DNA from: a virus
Length of the DNA stretch: 38,474 nucleotides
Virus record (IMG/VR): IMGVR_UViG_3300034198_019183
Location: 1 to 38,474 of that record
Strand: one strand, 5' to 3'
Shown here: in pieces, positions 3,660 to 26,392 of the stretch
How positions within the stretch are numbered: position 1 is the stretch's first letter
Layout: every line of letters starts with the position of its first letter
Notes under the pieces: generated by a model
What the model saw: only the letters and a program-made list of their open reading frames with translations
Databases searched by the model: none
What the model was told of the DNA's origin: nothing
Made by a program: the position numbers and the translations under genes

Positions 3660-4403
3660 ATGAATCTCAGAATGTACGCTTTAGTTGGAACAGTTGGCGG
3701 TTTAGTTGTTGCCCTTGGTGTTCACCACGGGCAGCGCTTCTTCGAATCAAAACAGCAAGTGAGTGAGTATCACCAAGAGATGATGCTTGCCATGGAACAA
3801 CCTCTAGAGTTGGGCGACAATCCGACACGGTTAGCTCCCGATGGTGTCCTACCTCTTGATGCTGTACCTGAGCCAGGATTCTCACCGGAGCCCGGTTCTC
3901 AACGGTCATCAATCGAGTTTTCGCATCCTGTTCCGCCGCTACCTCGGATCGCTAGCTCAGCATTCCTTACGCTTCGTAAAACAAACGAAACAATCCCCAA
4001 GACAAAAGATCCTGTCTGGCGACTAAGCCTCATCAGTAAAGATGGTGTGGTGCTCGACAGCCTGATTGCTGTGACAGGCAGAGCGTCCCGACAAACTGCA
4101 GACCGTCACACGGCTGGCACAAAAGCACCACTTCCGAAAGGAGACTATCGGATTGACACGATGGGTATTGAGCGCGGGCCGTTCCCCGACCCTGAATTAG
4201 GTCGCGGTTTCTGGATTCCGATCACTCCGATGTTCTCCACGGGGCGATCGGATCTCGGCTTTCACGTCGATCCTTCTCTCGGCAAACTCAACGGCGAGTC
4301 AGGTACATCAGGCTGCATCGGCTTAGAGAACACTGACGCAACGGTGAAACTCGTCACCTGGATCAAACACTTCGGAGTCACAAAATTAATCGTTCAATCA
4401 TGA
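3660..4403 (+). CDS. Membrane-anchored L,D-transpeptidase (YkuD-like)
   Basis: A 247-residue protein with an N-terminal membrane helix (about residues 5-22), a linker to about residue 100 and a C-terminal YkuD domain. The catalytic signature is visible: His202 in LGFHVDPS, then GTSGCIGL with Ser217, Gly218 and the nucleophile Cys219. The upstream PLPKGDYRID block (about residues 157-166) is also typical. The family forms 3-3 cross-links in peptidoglycan or attaches proteins to it, acting in the periplasm. Its stop overlaps the next ATG (ATGA). Activity on host wall is expected; purpose in infection is unknown. Confidence 0.8.
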   Translation: MNLRMYALVGTVGGLVVALGVHHGQRFFESKQQVSEYHQEMMLAMEQPLELGDNPTRLAPDGVLPLDAVPEPGFSPEPGSQRSSIEFSHPVPPLPRIASSAFLTLRKTNETIPKTKDPVWRLSLISKDGVVLDSLIAVTGRASRQTADRHTAGTKAPLPKGDYRIDTMGIERGPFPDPELGRGFWIPITPMFSTGRSDLGFHVDPSLGKLNGESGTSGCIGLENTDATVKLVTWIKHFGVTKLIVQS

Positions 4404-5897: not shown

Positions 5898-6055
5898 GTC
5901 CTGAGGCTTCGATGCCTCGCAACAGACTAAGACGCAAATGAGAAAGGTAAATACTTCATAGTTAATCCAGTTTTGTTGCTAGTGTTTTACTTAGAAAAAG
6001 TTTTCTTATTAACAAAAGTTGTAACAACTGTGCTCTCGTGTCACCAAATATAAAT

Positions 6056-6067
6056 CCCTGCGCAGGG
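6056..6067. promoter_or_regulatory. 12-base palindrome abutting the promoter (possible operator)
   Basis: CCCTGCGCAGGG is a perfect palindrome ending one base before the TTGACA at 6069. Its position suits an operator for a dimeric regulator such as the MarR-like protein encoded at 5040, though it could also be a hairpin. The pairing with that regulator is inference only. Confidence 0.35.
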
Positions 6068-6068
6068 G

Positions 6069-6097
6069 TTGACAAGGTGCTCAGGAGAATGTACATT
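6069..6097 (+). promoter_or_regulatory. Sigma70-type promoter for the RavA/ViaA-like cassette
   Basis: A perfect -35 TTGACA (6069-6074), a 17-base spacer and a -10 TACATT (6092-6097, four of six matches). Transcription would start near 6104, giving a leader of about 50 bases before the ATG at 6155. This is the best-looking promoter in the window. Confidence 0.6.
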
Positions 6098-6111
6098 GCT
6101 CTGCATGGGCG

Positions 6112-6133
6112 GCACCGGCCCTTAACGCGGTGC
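6112..6133 (+). promoter_or_regulatory. Leader hairpin of the RavA/ViaA-like cassette
   Basis: GCACCG (6112-6117) pairs with CGGTGC (6128-6133) around a ten-base loop holding CTTAACG. It lies near the predicted 5' end of the transcript and could stabilise it. TAACGCGG occurs both here and in the hairpin at 206-219. Confidence 0.35.
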
Positions 6134-6154
6134 GTTCCCTTCGCATCACATCAC

Positions 6155-6580
6155 ATGATTAAGGTCACTAAACAGTCCCTGATCGAACAGGGACGCATCA
6201 GCGCCGAGCGGTACGACTCCTGTGACACTGCCCTCGCTCAACTTAACGAAGGATTCGGTGCCGAGTATGAGTCTGCTCGCAGCAACCTAACTTCGATGCT
6301 TGTCAAAGCAGACAACAGCGGTATCGACCTGGATGTTTTCCGTGGCGACGATTCTTTATTCAAGTTTCCTGAGTTCCGTACGAACATCGTTGTTCGGATA
6401 GATCGTTTGCCCACGCCGCACGCCAAGATCGAGAAGCTGAACGAAAAGATTGCTGATCTGGAGCGCAAGCTCAAGATTGCCAAGATCGAGCGGAACAGTT
6501 TGATCGAACAACTGCACATCACCGGAGCCATCGACCTGGTTACCGACAAAATCACCGCCGTCTTCCGTCGCCTTAAGTGA
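6155..6580 (+). CDS. Coiled-coil protein leading the RavA/ViaA-like cassette
   Basis: A 141-residue protein. I start it at ATG 6155, downstream of the promoter and leader. The N-terminal half is mixed (MIKVTKQSLIEQGRISAERY) and the C-terminal half is a heptad-rich coiled coil (EKLNEKIADLERKLKIAKIE, residues about 93-112, continuing). Family not recognised. It is three bases before the DUF3150-like gene, so it is most likely an accessory member of that cassette, perhaps mediating oligomerisation. Role is inferred from position only. Confidence 0.6.
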   Translation: MIKVTKQSLIEQGRISAERYDSCDTALAQLNEGFGAEYESARSNLTSMLVKADNSGIDLDVFRGDDSLFKFPEFRTNIVVRIDRLPTPHAKIEKLNEKIADLERKLKIAKIERNSLIEQLHITGAIDLVTDKITAVFRRLK

Positions 6581-6582
6581 TC

Positions 6583-7794
6583 ATGAGCAACGACAAAATC
6601 TTCCTCCTTCACTGTTCCGTTAGCGCATCCGTAAGGCAGAGCACGCAGATCAAGATGGCAGATCTACAGCTGCCAGACACTGTGATTGACGTGCTTGAAA
6701 AACAGCAATCAGTTTCTGTACGTCCAACACTCTCAGGCAAACTTAAAGAGTTTTTGAATCTACTGCGTATAGAACAACGTAAGCTTTACGACGAGTGCAC
6801 AATCCATAACGGAGATGTTCACTTCCTCCATGAGGATTATTTCGAAGAGGCTATGGAACGCATCACAAAGATCCGTTCTGATGCTTCTAACTACAACGAG
6901 AAGCTCAATGAGCTTTGGCTTGAAGAGTACACTCGCTGGTCAAACACCGTTGAAGGTTTCTTAGAGCCTTTGTTCCGTGACGACACAGAAGGCTTCAAGC
7001 TCGCTAAGGAAGCTTACTTGACTATCTTCCCTACGAAACAGGAGTTCGAAAATCCGATCAAGGTGTTTGTGGTCGGACCCAACCCTGTGAGCCTGGAGGT
7101 TTCTGATAGCAAAGAGGAGCATTCGATCTCCACGGCCATTCAAGAGGCAGCGGTGCTCAACACAAACGAAGTGCTTGAGGCGGCGAGGGAGGGTGCTGCT
7201 GATCGCGCACTCGCTAAAGCCGCTGAACTATTAGACGATCTTGATGTTCGTGTGTCTTCCAAGATTGGCGAACGTCAAACTGGAGGAAGTAAGCGGCGTG
7301 GGTCTTGGCAAATTACTGCTGAGACTTTGCAGCTGATCACTCGCCATTGCCCAGGATTTGAGAATCTTTCGACGCTATCGAATGATTTGCTCGATGTAGG
7401 TGTCAGGCTTCAGTCAGCTACGGCCAAAGTTAAAAACCAAGCATTCAAAGACTATGCAAACCTAAAAACGAAGATTCGTAAGGAGCTTGAGTCGATTGTT
7501 GAATCGCGCAACACGAGCGATGGTCTCGAATCACTGAAGCGTTCCTTGGCACTCTCTAGTACATATAAAGATCTCTTGGCGAAGATCAACTCTGCTGACA
7601 ACCAGGAACAGCTCGATCAGCTCTACCACGAGCTTCAGGTCGAGAAAGATGTTTACCACCAACGAGCGAAGCATTTGCAAACCTTGTTTGATCAACGAGC
7701 TGAGTTGGTCAAAGCTCAATCCGCAAACCTTGATGATCTTATTGACGAGGTAAAAACTATTGAAGTTGAATCGACAGATGATCTTGATTTCTAG
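6583..7794 (+). CDS. DUF3150-like protein, partner of MoxR/VWA genes
   Basis: A 403-residue, helix-rich acidic protein starting at ATG 6583 (an upstream GTG at 6577 is also in frame). N-terminal text resembling DUF3150 includes a KIFLLHCSVSASVRQ-like strand, then helices and coiled coil at residues about 280-390. In other genomes DUF3150 proteins sit beside MoxR-type ATPases and VWA proteins, exactly as here; I assign the family by that context and general pattern, so this is moderate. The C-terminus STDDLDF is acidic then aromatic, like an SSB tail. It may be a substrate or adaptor for the ATPase/VWA pair. Confidence 0.6.
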   Translation: MSNDKIFLLHCSVSASVRQSTQIKMADLQLPDTVIDVLEKQQSVSVRPTLSGKLKEFLNLLRIEQRKLYDECTIHNGDVHFLHEDYFEEAMERITKIRSDASNYNEKLNELWLEEYTRWSNTVEGFLEPLFRDDTEGFKLAKEAYLTIFPTKQEFENPIKVFVVGPNPVSLEVSDSKEEHSISTAIQEAAVLNTNEVLEAAREGAADRALAKAAELLDDLDVRVSSKIGERQTGGSKRRGSWQITAETLQLITRHCPGFENLSTLSNDLLDVGVRLQSATAKVKNQAFKDYANLKTKIRKELESIVESRNTSDGLESLKRSLALSSTYKDLLAKINSADNQEQLDQLYHELQVEKDVYHQRAKHLQTLFDQRAELVKAQSANLDDLIDEVKTIEVESTDDLDF

Positions 7795-7831
7795 GCTTTC
7801 CTCAAAAGACTACAGACTTCTACTTGTCACT

Positions 7832-7875
7832 AAAAGTCTCTCTAAGCCGCACAGGAATCTAAAGAGAGATCTTTT
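7832..7875 (+). promoter_or_regulatory. Long imperfect inverted repeat between DUF3150-like and ATPase genes
   Basis: AAAAGTCTCTCT (7832-7843) pairs with AGAGAGATCTTTT (7863-7875) with one bulged T, giving an arm of about twelve pairs and ending in four Ts. It is in the 120-base gap between the two genes, which holds no other gene. It could attenuate or process the transcript and set the ATPase level; the stem is AT/AG-rich and not a classic GC-rich terminator. Confidence 0.4.
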
Positions 7876-7914
7876 AAAAAACCTGTTTAAAGCACTTTCA
7901 ACAATCTTCGACTA

Positions 7915-9099
7915 ATGAACGACACACTCTTCTCGAACCTTCAAAGCTTCCGCGCATCACTTAACACCAGCTTCCTAGAGCGTGCTGACATCATTGATGG
8001 ACTACTCGCGTCCCTGATTACAAAACAAAATAGCTTTCTGTTCGGGCTGCCTGGCACGGGTAAATCTGAGCTTGTCCGAGCAGTATCAAACGGATTCAAA
8101 GAGTCTCAATTCTTCGGTTACCTTCTTTCTCCCACCACGGATCCTTCTGAGTTATTCGGTCCTGTAGCTGTGTCCAAGCTATTGAATGACGAGTATGTTC
8201 GTGATGTTAAAGGGTATCTGCCAACCTCAAACATCGCATTCTTGGATGAACTCTTTCGTGGCAGCTCAGCAGTTCTTAATTCTTTGCTGACAATCCTGAA
8301 CGAGCGGACTTTCAATAACGGTCGCGAAGTTTTAGAAACTCCAATTCAGTCGATTGTCGCAGCAACCAACTCCTTCCCTCAAGAAGAATCGCTTCAAGCT
8401 TTCTGCGATCGATTCTTGTTCCGACCGACCGTAGATCTCCTTAAGAAACCAACCTCCAAGAGAAGTTTGGATATGTGGGCTCTCGGCATTAAGCAGCGAC
8501 CGGTAGTTGAATCTAATTTGACATTTGAAGACTTGACCACTCTCCAAGAAGAAGTGGCAAACGTGAGTGTCAGCGATGAGTTTCTAGATTCTTTTACGCA
8601 GGTGATTGACCTGTTAGCTACCAGAGGAATCACAATCAGCGACCGGCGAAGAGTTCAGATCCTCAAGTTCTTACGAGGCTGGGCTGTTGTGCAAGGCGAC
8701 GAGGAGCTGTTCCCGGAGCACCTTCACCGCTCGCTCGTGCACATTGTGTATCAAACACAAGATGATATACAGGTAGTTAAAGAAGTGCTAGAGCAAGCTG
8801 TACCTACAGCTGAAAAGCTGATGGAAAGTATCAAGCGAGCTCACAGCGGAATTCTCACTGAATACCACGCTCTCCACGCGGCAGAATCTAAGAGCGTCGA
8901 CGATTTAAATCGCCTGGTCGGCAAGCTTCGAAAGATGCACCGTGACTTAGAAACTCTGTCAAACAAACTAGATAACATCTTGGAATCTGGTCAATACAGA
9001 ATCAGCGCCAGTGCTCGACAGTCTGCAACCAAGCTTGCTCAAACTATCGAGTCTTCATCTCAATCAGTCGCAGCTTCAATCTCTAACGTCTCATCATGA
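7915..9099 (+). CDS. MoxR/RavA-type AAA+ ATPase
   Basis: A 394-residue AAA+ protein. Walker A is GLPGTGKS (residues 44-51), Walker B IAFLDE (107-112), sensor 1 Asn152 in VAATN, and an arginine finger region CDRFLFR (164-170). FGPVAVS and the run LNSLLTILNERTFNNGR match RavA more closely than generic MoxR. The C-terminal part (about 290-394) is helical, with a coiled coil near DDLNRLVGKLRKMHRDLE. In E. coli RavA forms a hexamer and works with the VWA protein ViaA on membrane and respiratory targets. The VWA partner follows here with a four-base overlap. The phage target is unknown. Confidence 0.85.
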   Translation: MNDTLFSNLQSFRASLNTSFLERADIIDGLLASLITKQNSFLFGLPGTGKSELVRAVSNGFKESQFFGYLLSPTTDPSELFGPVAVSKLLNDEYVRDVKGYLPTSNIAFLDELFRGSSAVLNSLLTILNERTFNNGREVLETPIQSIVAATNSFPQEESLQAFCDRFLFRPTVDLLKKPTSKRSLDMWALGIKQRPVVESNLTFEDLTTLQEEVANVSVSDEFLDSFTQVIDLLATRGITISDRRRVQILKFLRGWAVVQGDEELFPEHLHRSLVHIVYQTQDDIQVVKEVLEQAVPTAEKLMESIKRAHSGILTEYHALHAAESKSVDDLNRLVGKLRKMHRDLETLSNKLDNILESGQYRISASARQSATKLAQTIESSSQSVAASISNVSS

Positions 9100-10637
9100 A
9101 AACTAACACCGAGTTTCTTCGCCTCGTAAACAATGAGCCTCTCGTGCTCGCTGTCTCTGCACTCTCTGACTTCTTGTGGGATGACTTCATTCGAGATGCG
9201 CGTCCCATCGTCAGATACTTAGAAGACAAGTACAACATCAAACAGCTCTCTCGTTTCGGTAAAGAGCTATTCGATTTCCTGTACAACGGCGGCCAAGTAA
9301 CTACGGTCATCAATTTCGATGAGGTTGAGTCCTACTTCCGCGCCAAGCAGAACGGACAAAACCCAGACTTCCCCAAGGGATACAAACCTGAGTACGCATT
9401 CTGGTACAACTTATTTGTACAAGTGTGCGAGTCTCCTGCGTGGCCACGGTTGGTTGCCCTCTCGATCGGCGACCAGTTCACATCAGGTAATAACGCTGTA
9501 AACGTACTCAACGAACTCAGCGAGATCCTGATGGTCGAGCTTGAGGGCAACTCGCTCAGCGAAGAACTCCTCAGTCAAGGCGCTCAGCAACTTCAAGATA
9601 TTCGTGAACAGTTCATGGAGGCTAAGAAGCAAGGCGACAACGCCAAAGCTGCGCAGCTGCGTCAGCAAGGTAAGGAGCTTGGCCGACAAATGGAGCAAAG
9701 CTTGCTCCAAATGAGTGAACAAATGCAACCTCAAGTAGATAAGGCGGTTGATCGGGCGCATCAGGCCGCTAAAGACAATCAAGAAGCTATGGCTGCTCTC
9801 GCTGGCACCGAAGCTGGCAAAGGAGTCGCTCTTAACGATCTTGATCAAAAACGCAACCTTGCTAGGAAGCTCAGCAACAACCCTGGTCTTAAAGAGCTTG
9901 TGCGCCGACTCGGGGCTTTGCGGCAAGCTTGGGCTGATCGCAAGCGGGCTCGTAGGTCGCAGACTAGTTACAGCGACATAGTAGGTGCCAAGTTCTCAGA
10001 TACAGTGACCAAAGCATTTCCTGCTGAGATCGCCTTAGCTGCCACAGAGCAAGGTCGTGCTTTGTTTGCTCTGAAGTACAGTCAAAAAACATTGCTTTGC
10101 AAAGACTACGAAGCAAAGATCAAGGAACTTGATAAAGGCCCAGTGGTGCTATACATCGATATCAGTGGATCGATGGCAGGCGAGTGTGAGCTCTGGTCAA
10201 AAGCTATCGCCTACGTAATTGCCGAGGAGTGCCTCAAACAGAAGCGTGCGACACACATACACTTATTCGACACGCTTGTGCAAAAAAGTATTCACCTGGA
10301 TAAAGACCGTTCGGATAACGAACGCCTGCTTAACTTTGTACTTAGCTGGACGACAAGGGGAGGTACATCTTTCTGCTCTGTTATCAACCACGCGCTGTCG
10401 GAAATTAACTTCGTCGAAAAAGCCGACATTCTTATGATTACAGACGGAAACGCCGAGGTCTCAGACCCCTTCGTGCGGCGCCTCAACGCATTTAAACAAG
10501 AGCATGGTGTGCAATGGAATAGCTTCTGTATCGGTAAGCAAGCGCGTGTACTCAAAGAGTTTAGTGACTATGTGCACACAATAGATGTTCTGGACGATCC
10601 TAAAAGCGCAGAGTTGTTTCAAGATGCACTCCGCTGA
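9096..10637 (+). CDS. ViaA-like von Willebrand factor A domain protein
   Basis: A 513-residue protein. Residues 1-150 are helical; 150-240 form a Gln/Glu-rich coiled coil; residues about 345-500 are the VWA domain. The MIDAS motif is complete: DISGSM (Asp355, Ser357, Ser359), Thr424 in RGGTSF, and Asp450 in MITDGN. The order helical N-region, coiled coil, C-terminal VWA is that of ViaA. The start overlaps the ATPase stop (ATGA), so the two are coupled, as in ravA-viaA operons. It is expected to bind and stimulate the ATPase and to select its targets. The gene ends 30 bases before a GC hairpin. Confidence 0.85.
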   Translation: MKTNTEFLRLVNNEPLVLAVSALSDFLWDDFIRDARPIVRYLEDKYNIKQLSRFGKELFDFLYNGGQVTTVINFDEVESYFRAKQNGQNPDFPKGYKPEYAFWYNLFVQVCESPAWPRLVALSIGDQFTSGNNAVNVLNELSEILMVELEGNSLSEELLSQGAQQLQDIREQFMEAKKQGDNAKAAQLRQQGKELGRQMEQSLLQMSEQMQPQVDKAVDRAHQAAKDNQEAMAALAGTEAGKGVALNDLDQKRNLARKLSNNPGLKELVRRLGALRQAWADRKRARRSQTSYSDIVGAKFSDTVTKAFPAEIALAATEQGRALFALKYSQKTLLCKDYEAKIKELDKGPVVLYIDISGSMAGECELWSKAIAYVIAEECLKQKRATHIHLFDTLVQKSIHLDKDRSDNERLLNFVLSWTTRGGTSFCSVINHALSEINFVEKADILMITDGNAEVSDPFVRRLNAFKQEHGVQWNSFCIGKQARVLKEFSDYVHTIDVLDDPKSAELFQDALR

Positions 10638-10667
10638 GTATCCCTAAGTTAGAACTGCCCTTAGATT

Positions 10668-10688
10668 GAGGGGCATCTGCCGCCCCTC
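10668..10688 (+). terminator. Hairpin closing the RavA/ViaA-like cassette
   Basis: GAGGGGC (10668-10674) pairs perfectly with GCCCCTC (10682-10688) around a seven-base loop. Only two Ts follow before the ATG at 10691, so termination would be weak. The hairpin could equally mask the ribosome site of the next gene. Confidence 0.45.
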
Positions 10689-16176: not shown

Positions 16177-16735
16177 TTACTGTCTGGTCGTTCAACGGAA
16201 TGAGAGAAAGTTAGAGGTAGCCATCACAGCCAACGACTCGAACCACGCTCAGGCTCAAGCGGCAGACATAACCCGAGCACTGCAAGCAGATACATTCTCT
16301 CTGTCCTACAAAGTTGTACAAGAAAGCAGTCTTGCCATCCTGTTCAGAAGGCTAGCGTCTAGTGACTTCGAACACGCGTGCTGCGAGGAGTGGGGTGGAT
16401 GCTTCTGCAACGGCTCACCTGTGGTCTACGCACTGGGCTACAAGTACTACGTACGCCCCTTGATATTGGATTATCTTGAAATCAACAAAGACGGTTGTGT
16501 GAAGCCCTCCTGCGGCAACCGGCTCTGCATCAATCCCTACCACAACTCTTACAAAAGGATGAAGGCGTCGAAACTAGGCGACGCAGACACGAATTTGGTA
16601 CTAGCATTCTCCAGCCAAGGAGTCCCTGTAAAGGAGATTGCTAAGGCACTCAAGGTACACCGTTCAACGATTTACCGAACGTTAAACAATGCTCATCACG
16701 ATGCTCGGCCTTCGGGTCAAAGACGAGGCTCTTGA
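16163..16735 (+). CDS. Zinc-finger (HNH-like) plus helix-turn-helix protein
   Basis: A 190-residue protein from ATG 16163 (a longer frame starts at 16076, but it crosses the hairpin). The middle has cysteines in CCEEWGGCFCN, then CVKPSCGNRLCINPYHN, which matches the C-terminal half of HNH_3-type homing endonucleases (C--N--C-NP-H); the first catalytic His is not evident. A helix-turn-helix follows (VPVKEIAKALKVHRSTIYRT). It could be a degenerate homing endonuclease or a transcription factor. It overlaps the SSB-like gene by 47 bases. Confidence 0.65.
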   Translation: MTSTDYCLVVQRNERKLEVAITANDSNHAQAQAADITRALQADTFSLSYKVVQESSLAILFRRLASSDFEHACCEEWGGCFCNGSPVVYALGYKYYVRPLILDYLEINKDGCVKPSCGNRLCINPYHNSYKRMKASKLGDADTNLVLAFSSQGVPVKEIAKALKVHRSTIYRTLNNAHHDARPSGQRRGS

Positions 16736-17336
16736 AGAAGACGGACTCGTCAACGTAATTGCAGAGTCGCTCCCAACCTCAGACAAACGAGTCGCAACAA
16801 AGGTTCAGCTCACACAGAAGTCTGATCACTACGTTGGCAAGCTTTTGAAAGGACTTAAGGAGAGTCAAACGATCCTCGCCGTAGGTCCGGCAAAAGCCAC
16901 CCCTGATGGTGTGCTTCAAATGCAGCCGATGCTGGTTGTAACCAACGATAACTTCGACGACCTGCTTGCCATCAACACCTACATGGCTTGCGGTGGCTTA
17001 GGACCCAAGCAAGAGGAGAGCGAGGTAGGCGGCTCAACCGTGACCAACAGGTCATTGGCTTGGCAAGATCCTGACAGCTCAGAAACTTCCTGGACAAAGA
17101 TCACGGCGTGGGACAAGTTCTCGAAACAGCTTTCTGAACTTCCTAACGGAACACCGACGATTGCTGTTGGTCGGATCACCACGAGTGAAAAAGAAGAACG
17201 TCAGTACCTGAACTACTCCGTTGAAAAAGTTCTTTACCTTCCCAAGGGCACAAAGTCCGCGCCCAACAAAGCTGCAGACCCCGACAAAGGGCGTGTCTCA
17301 GCAGCGGCTCTCGGTTCACTGGATTTCTCTCTCTGA
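16689..17336 (+). CDS. Single-stranded DNA-binding protein-like (OB fold)
   Basis: A 215-residue protein. The region WTKITAWDKFSKQLSELPNG, then TIAVGRITTSEKEERQYLNY, matches the SSB OB-fold order (aromatic-rich strand, KxA-like helix, then G-R-strand). The tail is Pro/Lys-rich and ends SLDFSL, similar in spirit to an SSB C-terminal peptide but not strongly acidic. It would coat single-stranded DNA during replication with the polymerase and helicase. The start may be ATG 16689 or ATG 16701. It is 9 bases from the next gene. Confidence 0.6.
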   Translation: MLITMLGLRVKDEALEEDGLVNVIAESLPTSDKRVATKVQLTQKSDHYVGKLLKGLKESQTILAVGPAKATPDGVLQMQPMLVVTNDNFDDLLAINTYMACGGLGPKQEESEVGGSTVTNRSLAWQDPDSSETSWTKITAWDKFSKQLSELPNGTPTIAVGRITTSEKEERQYLNYSVEKVLYLPKGTKSAPNKAADPDKGRVSAAALGSLDFSL

Positions 17337-23578: not shown

Positions 23579-23923
23579 ATGACACAACAACATCCCATCA
23601 CCCCACCGCCGGAGCTGGTGCAGCAGTGGCTAAAAGAGCGCACACTTCTGAAATCACAGCCTTTGGCTCACACCTACCTAGCCACCCGCGCTGCCCAATG
23701 GGGCGCAGACCAAGAGCTGGAGGCGTGCTGTGAGTGGCTGGAGCAGCAGACTCTGTGTGGCCACCAAGACTTGCTTCCTTCATTCCGCGCTGCCCGCCGC
23801 CCCAACCCCAACCCGCCGAGCTTGAAGGAGCAGGCGTTGGCTGAACTAGCCGAATGGGAAAACGTTATGGACATTGCACCCGATAGCCCCATCCGCCGCG
23901 CTTTGGAGCAACTCGATGACTGA
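23579..23923 (+). CDS. Cyanophage accessory protein (HPITPP / GADQELEACC family), copy 2
   Basis: A 114-residue protein with QQHPITPPPELVQQW, then WGADQELEACCEWL, then PNPPSLKEQALAELAEWEN and IRRALEQLDD. This is a diverged paralogue of the gene at 2334, the two copies lying at the outer ends of the + strand half. Function unknown. Its last eight bases overlap the next gene's ATG. Confidence 0.75.
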   Translation: MTQQHPITPPPELVQQWLKERTLLKSQPLAHTYLATRAAQWGADQELEACCEWLEQQTLCGHQDLLPSFRAARRPNPNPPSLKEQALAELAEWENVMDIAPDSPIRRALEQLDD

Positions 23924-24400: not shown

Positions 24401-24471
24401 GGGTCGGTAGTCTATTGGTAAGGACAGGCGGACAACGCACTTAGAAAGTCGGTTCGATTCCGGCACGACCC
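24401..24471 (+). tRNA. tRNA-like element with non-canonical anticodon arm
   Basis: A 71-base cloverleaf-like sequence. GGGTCG pairs with CGACCC (acceptor, a G-A mismatch at the seventh pair). GTCT pairs with GGAC around an ATTGGTAA loop (D arm, conserved GG at 18-19). GTCGG and CCGGC enclose TTCGATT (T arm, canonical). Spacing between arms is exactly that of a tRNA, but bases 24427-24443 cannot form a five-pair anticodon stem; only GCG-GACAA-CGC pairs. U33 is absent and no CCA is encoded. I cannot assign an amino acid. It is either a decayed tRNA or a tRNA-like structure. Confidence 0.55.
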
Positions 24472-24511
24472 TTGGCACAGTAGTCTGATCGCTAGTATGT
24501 TTAGTGATAGA

Positions 24512-24580: not shown

Positions 24581-26392
24581 CTACTGGGGCAGGTAGCGGA
24601 TAAAATCCCATCCCTTAAGAGACGGGTCTTCCGATTGCTTGATCGCTTTAACAACAGTCGGAAGCTCGCGAGCTAGGCGATACCCAATCGAACGAGCAAT
24701 CTCACGATGCTCTTTTTGGGTATCGTCTTTACCCCGTAAACCCACATAATGTATAAAACTACGCACTGTACCGCTCATGTGCATACGGGTTGGTGTATAT
24801 AAAGGGAGAATATTACGAGCACATTCACGAGCCACGCCTGCGTTAAGCATCTCGTTGTACAGCTCCTGGATCTGACTGTCGATAATCTCTAACCGGTCCC
24901 AGAACGATTCACACATGTAAACCGGTAGCCGGTCTACGCTGCTTTGCCGATTCTTTTGAGCTTGAAATCGGAGTTCAAACTGAAAAGGCTTCTCCTCTAC
25001 ATCTAGAGTTTCATTTGGGTTGCAATAGCGCTGAGAATTGTGAACAACTACACCGTTTGCGACATAGTTATGAGAGTCGTGATCTACTTCTAAGTCATAA
25101 GTATCTAGTAACCCTAGATAAGTAATAGACTCCACGGTAGTCCAACGCGCAGTCAATTTATTACCACTACTACGATGCCTCCATTCAACACGATGACCTT
25201 CAGTACCATGTGTACGAGAATGACACTCTTTACAGAGAACTTCTATATTCGACAAATCGTAAGCTTTGTCTGGATGAGAGTAAACAGGTAATCTATGATG
25301 CAGTTCTAACTTTTTATTAGATCCACATTTTTTACATTTAAAGCAAGCATCCTCCAACAATTTTCGTCGGTGCTGACTAATAAAGTCACATATTTTTTGC
25401 CTCTCGGCTCGATCAACACCTCCTCTCCATAAATTACTATCAGATCCTCGACGAGCTTTGGCACGAAGTTTATCTTTCGTTTCTTCAGACATAGGTTTAC
25501 CTTTATACCGCAAGCCTTTATTCCATATAGGTGTATAAGAAGCTACTTCTTTTTTGGTGAAACAAATAGAGTGTTTTTTTAACCATTTACGAATAGTGTT
25601 GGGAGAGCAGCTCGCCGCATTCGCTATTCCTTCTAACCCAGTACCGTTAGCGATACAAATTTCTTTTGTTTTTTGAAGCCAATCTTTATCTTGATAAACA
25701 GGTACTCCGTTAGTAGCAAATAGTGTGTCCGCACGTTCGATAGGGATGGCGACAGTATTATTAGAAGTCACTCGTAAATCTAGTATTTCTTTAAGAGGGG
25801 CAAACCCACTTTTAGTTAAAAATTTGTGGTCTAGTGTACTCTTTATTTTTTTACCATTAGAGAATTTAATTTCATAACATGGTTTAACACCAGTTTTATA
25901 TATATCTACTATATTGCTAGTTATGAACTCGTTAGTGTTCTGATCGAAGACTCGAATACGCATATTTTGAATTCGATCTTTTAGTGGGATTCTGCGTTTA
26001 TCTTCTGAGTCCCACCGGGAGTTTATAGGTGCTGCCCCAAAATGAAACTTATCATATAAGTATGAAATAGATCTTGTGTAGTGGCTTCTTTTATTTTTTG
26101 TATGTCCGTGAGGCAACTCAAAAGAAATGAGGGAGTCCCCCGTAATACAAGCTTCTTGAAATACAAAGCTCCTATGCCTCAAGATTTGTGGTGAAATTGC
26201 TCTAGTTGTTGATATTTCAAAGCTCGCAGATGCTTGCTCAAATACGCTCCAGTGTGAGTGCTTGATACAGTACGTTAAAAGTTTCTCATACTCAGCACGA
26301 TCAGGATCTTTAGTAGAAACCCTAGCGTGTCTTGCTATTACTTTTTCCGCGTCACTTGTGATCCAATCCAGATCAGCAGTGTGAAGCTGCAT
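24581..26392 (-). CDS. thyX: Flavin-dependent thymidylate synthase with an in-frame intein
   Basis: A 603-residue precursor. Residues 1-81 and 453-603 give a 232-residue ThyX after splicing; this is a normal ThyX length. The ThyX signature RHR-X7-S is interrupted: ILRHRSFVFQEA lies just before the intein and the signature Ser begins the C-extein (SQRYCNP). FAD-dependent ThyX methylates dUMP to dTMP using methylenetetrahydrofolate and NADPH, complementing the Dcd encoded at 5382. Splicing must occur for the enzyme to be active, as the intein splits the active site. Its ATG overlaps the upstream 46-aa gene stop (TAATG). Confidence 0.9.
   Translation of the reverse strand: MQLHTADLDWITSDAEKVIARHARVSTKDPDRAEYEKLLTYCIKHSHWSVFEQASASFEISTTRAISPQILRHRSFVFQEACITGDSLISFELPHGHTKNKRSHYTRSISYLYDKFHFGAAPINSRWDSEDKRRIPLKDRIQNMRIRVFDQNTNEFITSNIVDIYKTGVKPCYEIKFSNGKKIKSTLDHKFLTKSGFAPLKEILDLRVTSNNTVAIPIERADTLFATNGVPVYQDKDWLQKTKEICIANGTGLEGIANAASCSPNTIRKWLKKHSICFTKKEVASYTPIWNKGLRYKGKPMSEETKDKLRAKARRGSDSNLWRGGVDRAERQKICDFISQHRRKLLEDACFKCKKCGSNKKLELHHRLPVYSHPDKAYDLSNIEVLCKECHSRTHGTEGHRVEWRHRSSGNKLTARWTTVESITYLGLLDTYDLEVDHDSHNYVANGVVVHNSQRYCNPNETLDVEEKPFQFELRFQAQKNRQSSVDRLPVYMCESFWDRLEIIDSQIQELYNEMLNAGVARECARNILPLYTPTRMHMSGTVRSFIHYVGLRGKDDTQKEHREIARSIGYRLARELPTVVKAIKQSEDPSLKGWDFIRYLPQ
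25037..26149 (-). mobile_element. HNH-endonuclease intein in thyX
   Basis: Residues 82-452 (371 aa). Splicing block A is CITGDSLISF (Cys1); block B is KKIKSTLDHKFLT with the TxxH-type Thr and His; blocks F and G are TYDLEVDHDSHNYVANG and VVVHN, followed by the +1 Ser. The central part holds NUMOD3-like segments (WNKGL, KGKPMSEETKDKLRAKARRG) and an HNH endonuclease with CKKCG, LELHHRLPVYS, LSNIEVLCKECH. Zinc cysteines are present, so the endonuclease may still be active and able to home. The DNA is noticeably more AT-rich than flanking exteins, suggesting a separate origin. Confidence 0.9.

Follow-up and report, generated by a model that had tools for sequence, protein, structure and literature searches.

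A conserved viral operon encoding a RavA-like MoxR ATPase, a ViaA-like VWA protein and a putative partner has counterparts on cyanobacterial plasmids

Introduction

The 38,474-base virus contig IMGVR_UViG_3300034198_019183 (the window, meaning the whole stretch of DNA that was analysed) carries four consecutive genes, A to D, whose products include a MoxR-type AAA+ ATPase (C) and a VWA protein (D). MoxR-VWA pairs have been known in phages since at least 2007 (PMC2147016). Such pairs are found widely among phages, yet few have a demonstrated role. What does this pair do for the virus, and what do the two proteins encoded directly upstream contribute? The original prediction regarded the locus as a RavA-ViaA-like cassette with a DUF3150-type partner. 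Computation establishes the gene identities and order, purifying selection, a conserved promoter and the homology of genes B, C and D to a plasmid triad. The operon is real and conserved, and plasmids of Acaryochloris and Chroococcidiopsis carry a triad whose genes are homologous to B, C and D one by one and stand in the same order. This relationship is new, and the operon constitutes a new variant of the MoxR-VWA pairs already known from phages.

Results

Four co-directional genes form a conserved operon

The operon comprises the following genes.

6155..6580, + strand: gene A, a 141-amino-acid helical/coiled-coil protein; start set by comparison with relatives
6577..7794, + strand: gene B, a 405-amino-acid, mostly helical protein with a predicted DUF3150-like fold; start GTG 6577 or ATG 6583
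7915..9099, + strand: gene C, a 394-amino-acid RavA-like MoxR AAA+ ATPase without LARA domain; assigned by Pfam, NCBIfam and PDB matches, motifs and trees
9096..10637, + strand: gene D, a 513-amino-acid ViaA-like VWA protein with an intact metal-ion-dependent adhesion site (MIDAS); assigned by profile match and the invariant MIDAS

The shared direction and tight spacing of the original prediction are confirmed, with 4-nucleotide overlaps at both A/B and C/D. The B-C gap measures 120 nucleotides in the window (7795-7914) and 2-30 in some relatives, within an overall range of 2-235. In the related loci L056, L060 and L063, the B-C spacer appears to hold a small open reading frame (ORF) that starts at the B stop codon.

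The A-B-C-D order is kept, down to ~47-60% identity, in about 33 distinct viral contigs, a number counted from the search outputs for close, middle and deep groups. The four genes are thus linked in related phages, the test that the original prediction itself had proposed. C and D are both 73-95% identical in close relatives; identity falls to 69-74% (C) and 56-63% (D) in the middle group and to 58-61% and 47-51%, respectively, in the deep group. D follows C wherever the contig extends far enough, with an insert of ~0.9 kb between them in L065 and L066. Relatives also share the genes that follow A-B-C-D, a 270-amino-acid-type gene and polA, and a codon-position comparison indicates that each of the four genes is under strong purifying selection. 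As a separate observation, L066 has a gene for a small protein starting with a QHPxTPP-type motif between C and D; paralogous proteins of this type are encoded at 2334-2693 and 23579-23923 of the window and at 10599-10943 of L066.

C resembles RavA without being its orthologue, and D resembles ViaA

C matches the Pfam family bpMoxR (PF20030) at 1e-53 and the NCBIfam RavA model at 1.9e-39, the latter with 136 bits against an equivalog cut-off of 681 bits, which is not reached. Among solved structures, RavA is by far the best match (1.6e-61, against 1.8e-11 for the next MoxR). The Walker A and B motifs, already read in the original prediction, are intact, as are the sensor and arginine residues, and the motifs are invariant in the family and in distant relatives. 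The LARA and RavA C-terminal domains are absent from C, given that PF20265 and PF12592 match Salmonella RavA but not C. PF20030 matches Salmonella RavA as well, and the name bpMoxR is therefore no pointer to conflict systems.

Canonical RavA sequences, including Salmonella RavA, form their own supported clade (100/98; 95/95) with C outside it, contrary to the expected RavA-clade placement. The first tree grouped C with cyanobacterial plasmid ATPases (89/97); CobS, YehL and p618 of Acidianus two-tailed virus (ATV) were long branches there and were left out of the second tree. The RavA-type assignment consequently holds by profile and best solved structure, whereas orthology to RavA is ruled out by the missing domains, the scores far below cut-offs and the place outside the RavA clade.

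D carries the MIDAS residues D355, S357, S359, T424 and D450, which are invariant across relatives, and matches the NCBIfam ViaA model at 2.4e-14 (53 bits, short of the 500-bit equivalog cut-off); the ViaA-type VWA protein with a complete MIDAS was hence correctly anticipated. The hhalign match of D to ViaA (E 5.1e-12) is limited to 268 C-terminal columns rather than the full length, and D matches the Acaryochloris plasmid VWA protein over nearly its full length (E 3.9e-33). With RavA-ViaA of Enterobacteriaceae the operon shares a MoxR AAA+ gene followed by an adjacent VWA gene, the invariant motifs and the best solved-structure match. The differences are that C is missing the LARA and C-terminal domains and falls outside the canonical RavA clade, that there is an extra partner, B, and that the setting is a mobile element.

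B links the operon to plasmid triads

B shows no Pfam family above cut-off, and the hidden Markov model (HMM) of DUF3150 (PF11348), run on the window and eight related records, finds nothing at E<=10 in any of the nine. A structural model of B built from 23 relatives (mean predicted local distance difference test score, pLDDT, 67; predicted template modelling score, pTM, 0.42) finds as its top hit in BFVD a protein that bears the name DUF3150 (E 1.9e-4, prob 1.00, 15% identity), a match made with a model of moderate confidence; a PDB fold search returned no significant match. The predicted DUF3150-type partner thus fails at the HMM level and finds support at the fold level: phage DUF3150 proteins may resemble B in fold and differ from it in the missing HMM match and the 15% identity. 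YuA and BcepNazgul, considered as possible sources of DUF3150, showed no DUF3150 annotation.

Nearly all relatives of B end, like B itself (7780-7791), in an acidic stretch followed by DF, which may resemble the tips of single-strand-binding proteins (SSBs). The plasmid relatives of B and a Pseudanabaena DUF6744 protein likewise end in F. DUF6744 was considered as a relative of B and ruled out, with no profile similarity. No paper mentioning DUF3150 or DUF6744 was found among the open-access papers searched.

On the Acaryochloris and Chroococcidiopsis plasmids, the gene immediately preceding the RavA-like one encodes a protein that aligns with B over 354 columns (hhalign prob 99.3, E 2e-20), and in PLSDB such proteins were found only in these two genera. 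Scans of genome collections with B and C alignments found no relatives, a weak negative given that the seeds were long exact patterns; tblastn against plasmids later found some. On Acaryochloris marina pREC4 and the Chroococcidiopsis plasmids, the triad consists of a hypothetical protein, a MoxR/AAA ATPase that is 38-40% identical to C by tblastn and a VWA protein. Unlike the phage operon, these triads have no gene A that could be found and no annotated replication neighbours; in Chroococcidiopsis, the ATPase and VWA genes are separated by inserted toxin-antitoxin genes. None of the papers found describes the triad as a system.

Related pairs occur with other partners. Moorella phage MTATph1 and plasmids of Alicyclobacillus, Brevibacillus, Pseudanabaena and Nocardia carry modules that resemble the operon: a RavA-like/VWA pair is joined by a third partner, encoded upstream of it or close to it, which here is a DUF6744 protein that is unlike B by profile. 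In Aphanizomenon phage vB_AphaS-CL131, gp148-gp147-gp146 form a partner-MoxR-VWA run followed by dnaN; its partner is LPD29 and its ATPase is only ~30% identical to C. Besides dnaN in CL131, replication genes near such pairs include dnaN and a CHC2 primase-type gene on the Alicyclobacillus plasmid, an SSB gene on the Pseudanabaena plasmid, and DnaN- and SSB-like ORFs read from the sequence of contig MT836594. Separately, a RavA-like ATPase gene of Listeria innocua plasmid pLIS35 (5241-6954) adjoins quaternary-ammonium efflux genes and has no annotated VWA neighbour in the stretch.

A conserved promoter and leader precede gene A

Three further features flank the genes.

6069..6097, + strand: sigma70-type promoter TTGACA-N17-TACATT; 10/12 consensus matches, alignment of relatives
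6107..6133, + strand: 5' leader GGGCGGCACCGGCCCTTAACGCGGTGC; nearly invariant, near the expected transcript start
10668..10688, + strand: 7-bp hairpin GAGGGGC/GCCCCTC; directly before the ATG of the next gene

By pattern alone, a promoter scan finds no more sites than chance would give (4 against an expected 4.4). TTGACA and TAnnnT nevertheless keep a constant position ahead of the leader in 46 of the first 70 loci (redundant copies included), and -35-like and TAnnnT boxes recur in place in most relatives, L056 being a departure. The sigma70-like promoter of the original prediction is thus strengthened by positional conservation, despite the chance-level scan. The leader has 18 invariant columns across 21 distinct versions and is nearly invariant even in the deepest group of relatives, an invariance partly imposed by the search pattern. 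It could form an H-type pseudoknot (GGGC 6107-6110 with GCCC 6118-6121; GCACC 6112-6116 with GGTGC 6129-6133). Both candidate stems are nearly invariant, with no covariation for or against the fold, and the second is broken in L056. Rfam contains no match to the leader, which could be an RNA or a DNA element.

Gene A was earlier read from 6038 or 6069, which lies upstream of its true start. In relatives, the frame across 6038-6154 is broken by stops or shifts; this stretch holds an untranslated leader, and the start is ATG 6155. In every relative examined, this ATG lies 19-28 nucleotides downstream of the conserved leader and opens a 140-141-amino-acid protein. A is predicted to fold with a mean pLDDT of 88.5; it has no significant BFVD fold match and no match in family searches (including Pfam and NCBIfam), and no relatives outside the phage family were found. 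The proposed closing terminator is not supported, as the hairpin has a strong stem but no T run, was not called by the scan and occurs in only a few near relatives.

The operon lies in the replication module of a putative cyanophage

The virus has no close isolate (megablast with window 1-24500 gave no match). Plus-strand genes run from the left end of the window through polA and primase, and the operon sits inside this replication module with dcd and polA as neighbours; an SSB-like protein is encoded at 16689-17336. The structural and lysis genes form a separate block on the minus strand, opposite in orientation to the operon. A cyanobacterial host is likely, because cyanobacterial plasmids hold the nearest cellular relatives of C and B, and Pseudanabaena phages those closest to polA (29% identity). 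The assumed cyanophage origin thereby gains indirect support; psbA, sought in the window as a host marker, is absent.

Elsewhere in the window, a thymidylate synthase ORF (24581-26392, minus strand) contains an in-frame HNH endonuclease region that splits it and may be an intein; 3660-4403 gives a YkuD (L,D-transpeptidase) domain match slightly above the Pfam cut-off, which is unusual for a phage; and a tRNA-Leu (CAA) gene occupies 24401-24472.

Discussion

What is the biological function of the operon? As a tentative proposal, we suggest that it encodes a mobile-element machine of the RavA-ViaA type, with B as a dedicated partner, that remodels a complex needed by the phage, most likely the replication machinery. 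C would form an ATP-driven MoxR ring, and D would serve as its VWA/MIDAS cofactor and engage the target. The DUF3150-like B would be the dedicated third partner, an adaptor or substrate that sets what the machine acts on, presumably through contact with D. A may be a lineage-specific helical accessory. The operon would be transcribed from its own host-type promoter within the replication module and so probably early, and the machine would remodel or mature its target complex rather than build virions or act on host membrane complexes.

Several points weigh against this proposal. The evidence on the target is not direct, since replication is suggested by a gene neighbourhood that is recurrent but not universal: the closest plasmid triads (Acaryochloris and Chroococcidiopsis) and the Brevibacillus and Nocardia pairs have no replication neighbours. 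Adjacency to replication genes is weak evidence in any case, because phage replication genes cluster anyway. In the second tree, C has no resolved place among the RavA-like sequences, and the grouping with plasmid ATPases is not recovered. The B model is of moderate confidence (pLDDT 67, pTM 0.42), and the contact between B and D is putative.

How do other explanations compare? The machine may, with B, disarm or dismantle a complex of the host or of a rival element as a counter-defence or conflict system. MoxR-VWA ternary systems have been described as conflict systems (PMC7159879), and the triad travels on phages as well as on conjugative plasmids, in some cases near toxin-antitoxin genes. 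We consider this role unlikely, in that PADLOC gives no family beyond chance-level scores, Pfam and PADLOC reveal in A-D neither VMAP nor the effector domains known from those ternary systems, and the operon is syntenic across the family rather than sporadic. The original prediction held that the phage remodels a host complex, perhaps at the membrane; a respiratory complex would be another such target, as with RavA-ViaA in E. coli. In favour of this view is the family resemblance to RavA-ViaA, for which an association with respiratory complexes as well as with the inner membrane is reported (PMC3893208, PMC9489729). The absence of the LARA and RavA C-terminal domains from C, the restriction of the ViaA match to the C-terminal half of D and the lack of any sign of a membrane or respiratory target in the operon leave this view unsupported and make it quite improbable.

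Published proposals for viral MoxR-VWA pairs include a chaperone function in virion assembly for ATV p618 and a jumbo-phage MoxR-vWA pair (PMC7824862; ATV work cited in PMC7911831). Plasmids make no virions, and a triad shared with them therefore speaks against a general role in building particles; the position of the operon in the replication module, on the strand opposite to the structural genes, adds to this, and such a chaperone has only a slim chance of being the answer. Bacterial MoxR-VWA pairs also insert metal cofactors, and many tailed viruses carry cobST-like pairs (PMC8651126, PMC9976466); phage MoxR-VWA pairs have been proposed to act in cobalamin synthesis (PMC8651126). A metal-insertion chaperone of the CobS/CobT or NorQ/NorD type is very improbable here: C matches the phage CobS-type family phrog_249 at only E 0.005, S-PM2 CobS is extremely distant from C in the tree, and the annotated ORFs include no chelatase or metalloenzyme neighbour.

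The proposed remodelling of the replication machinery can be extended to a bolder and rather doubtful conjecture, namely that B-C-D is an undescribed remodelling machine common to cyanophages and cyanobacterial plasmids, that interchangeable third partners (B/DUF3150, DUF6744 or LPD29) direct it to the replication proteins of the element, and that in the phage its transcript begins with a new, compact leader RNA that controls it. The nearly invariant leader beside the conserved promoter is a further candidate regulatory element. That phages and plasmids share one set of three genes points to the third protein as the likely specificity factor of the machine and provides concrete genes to test.

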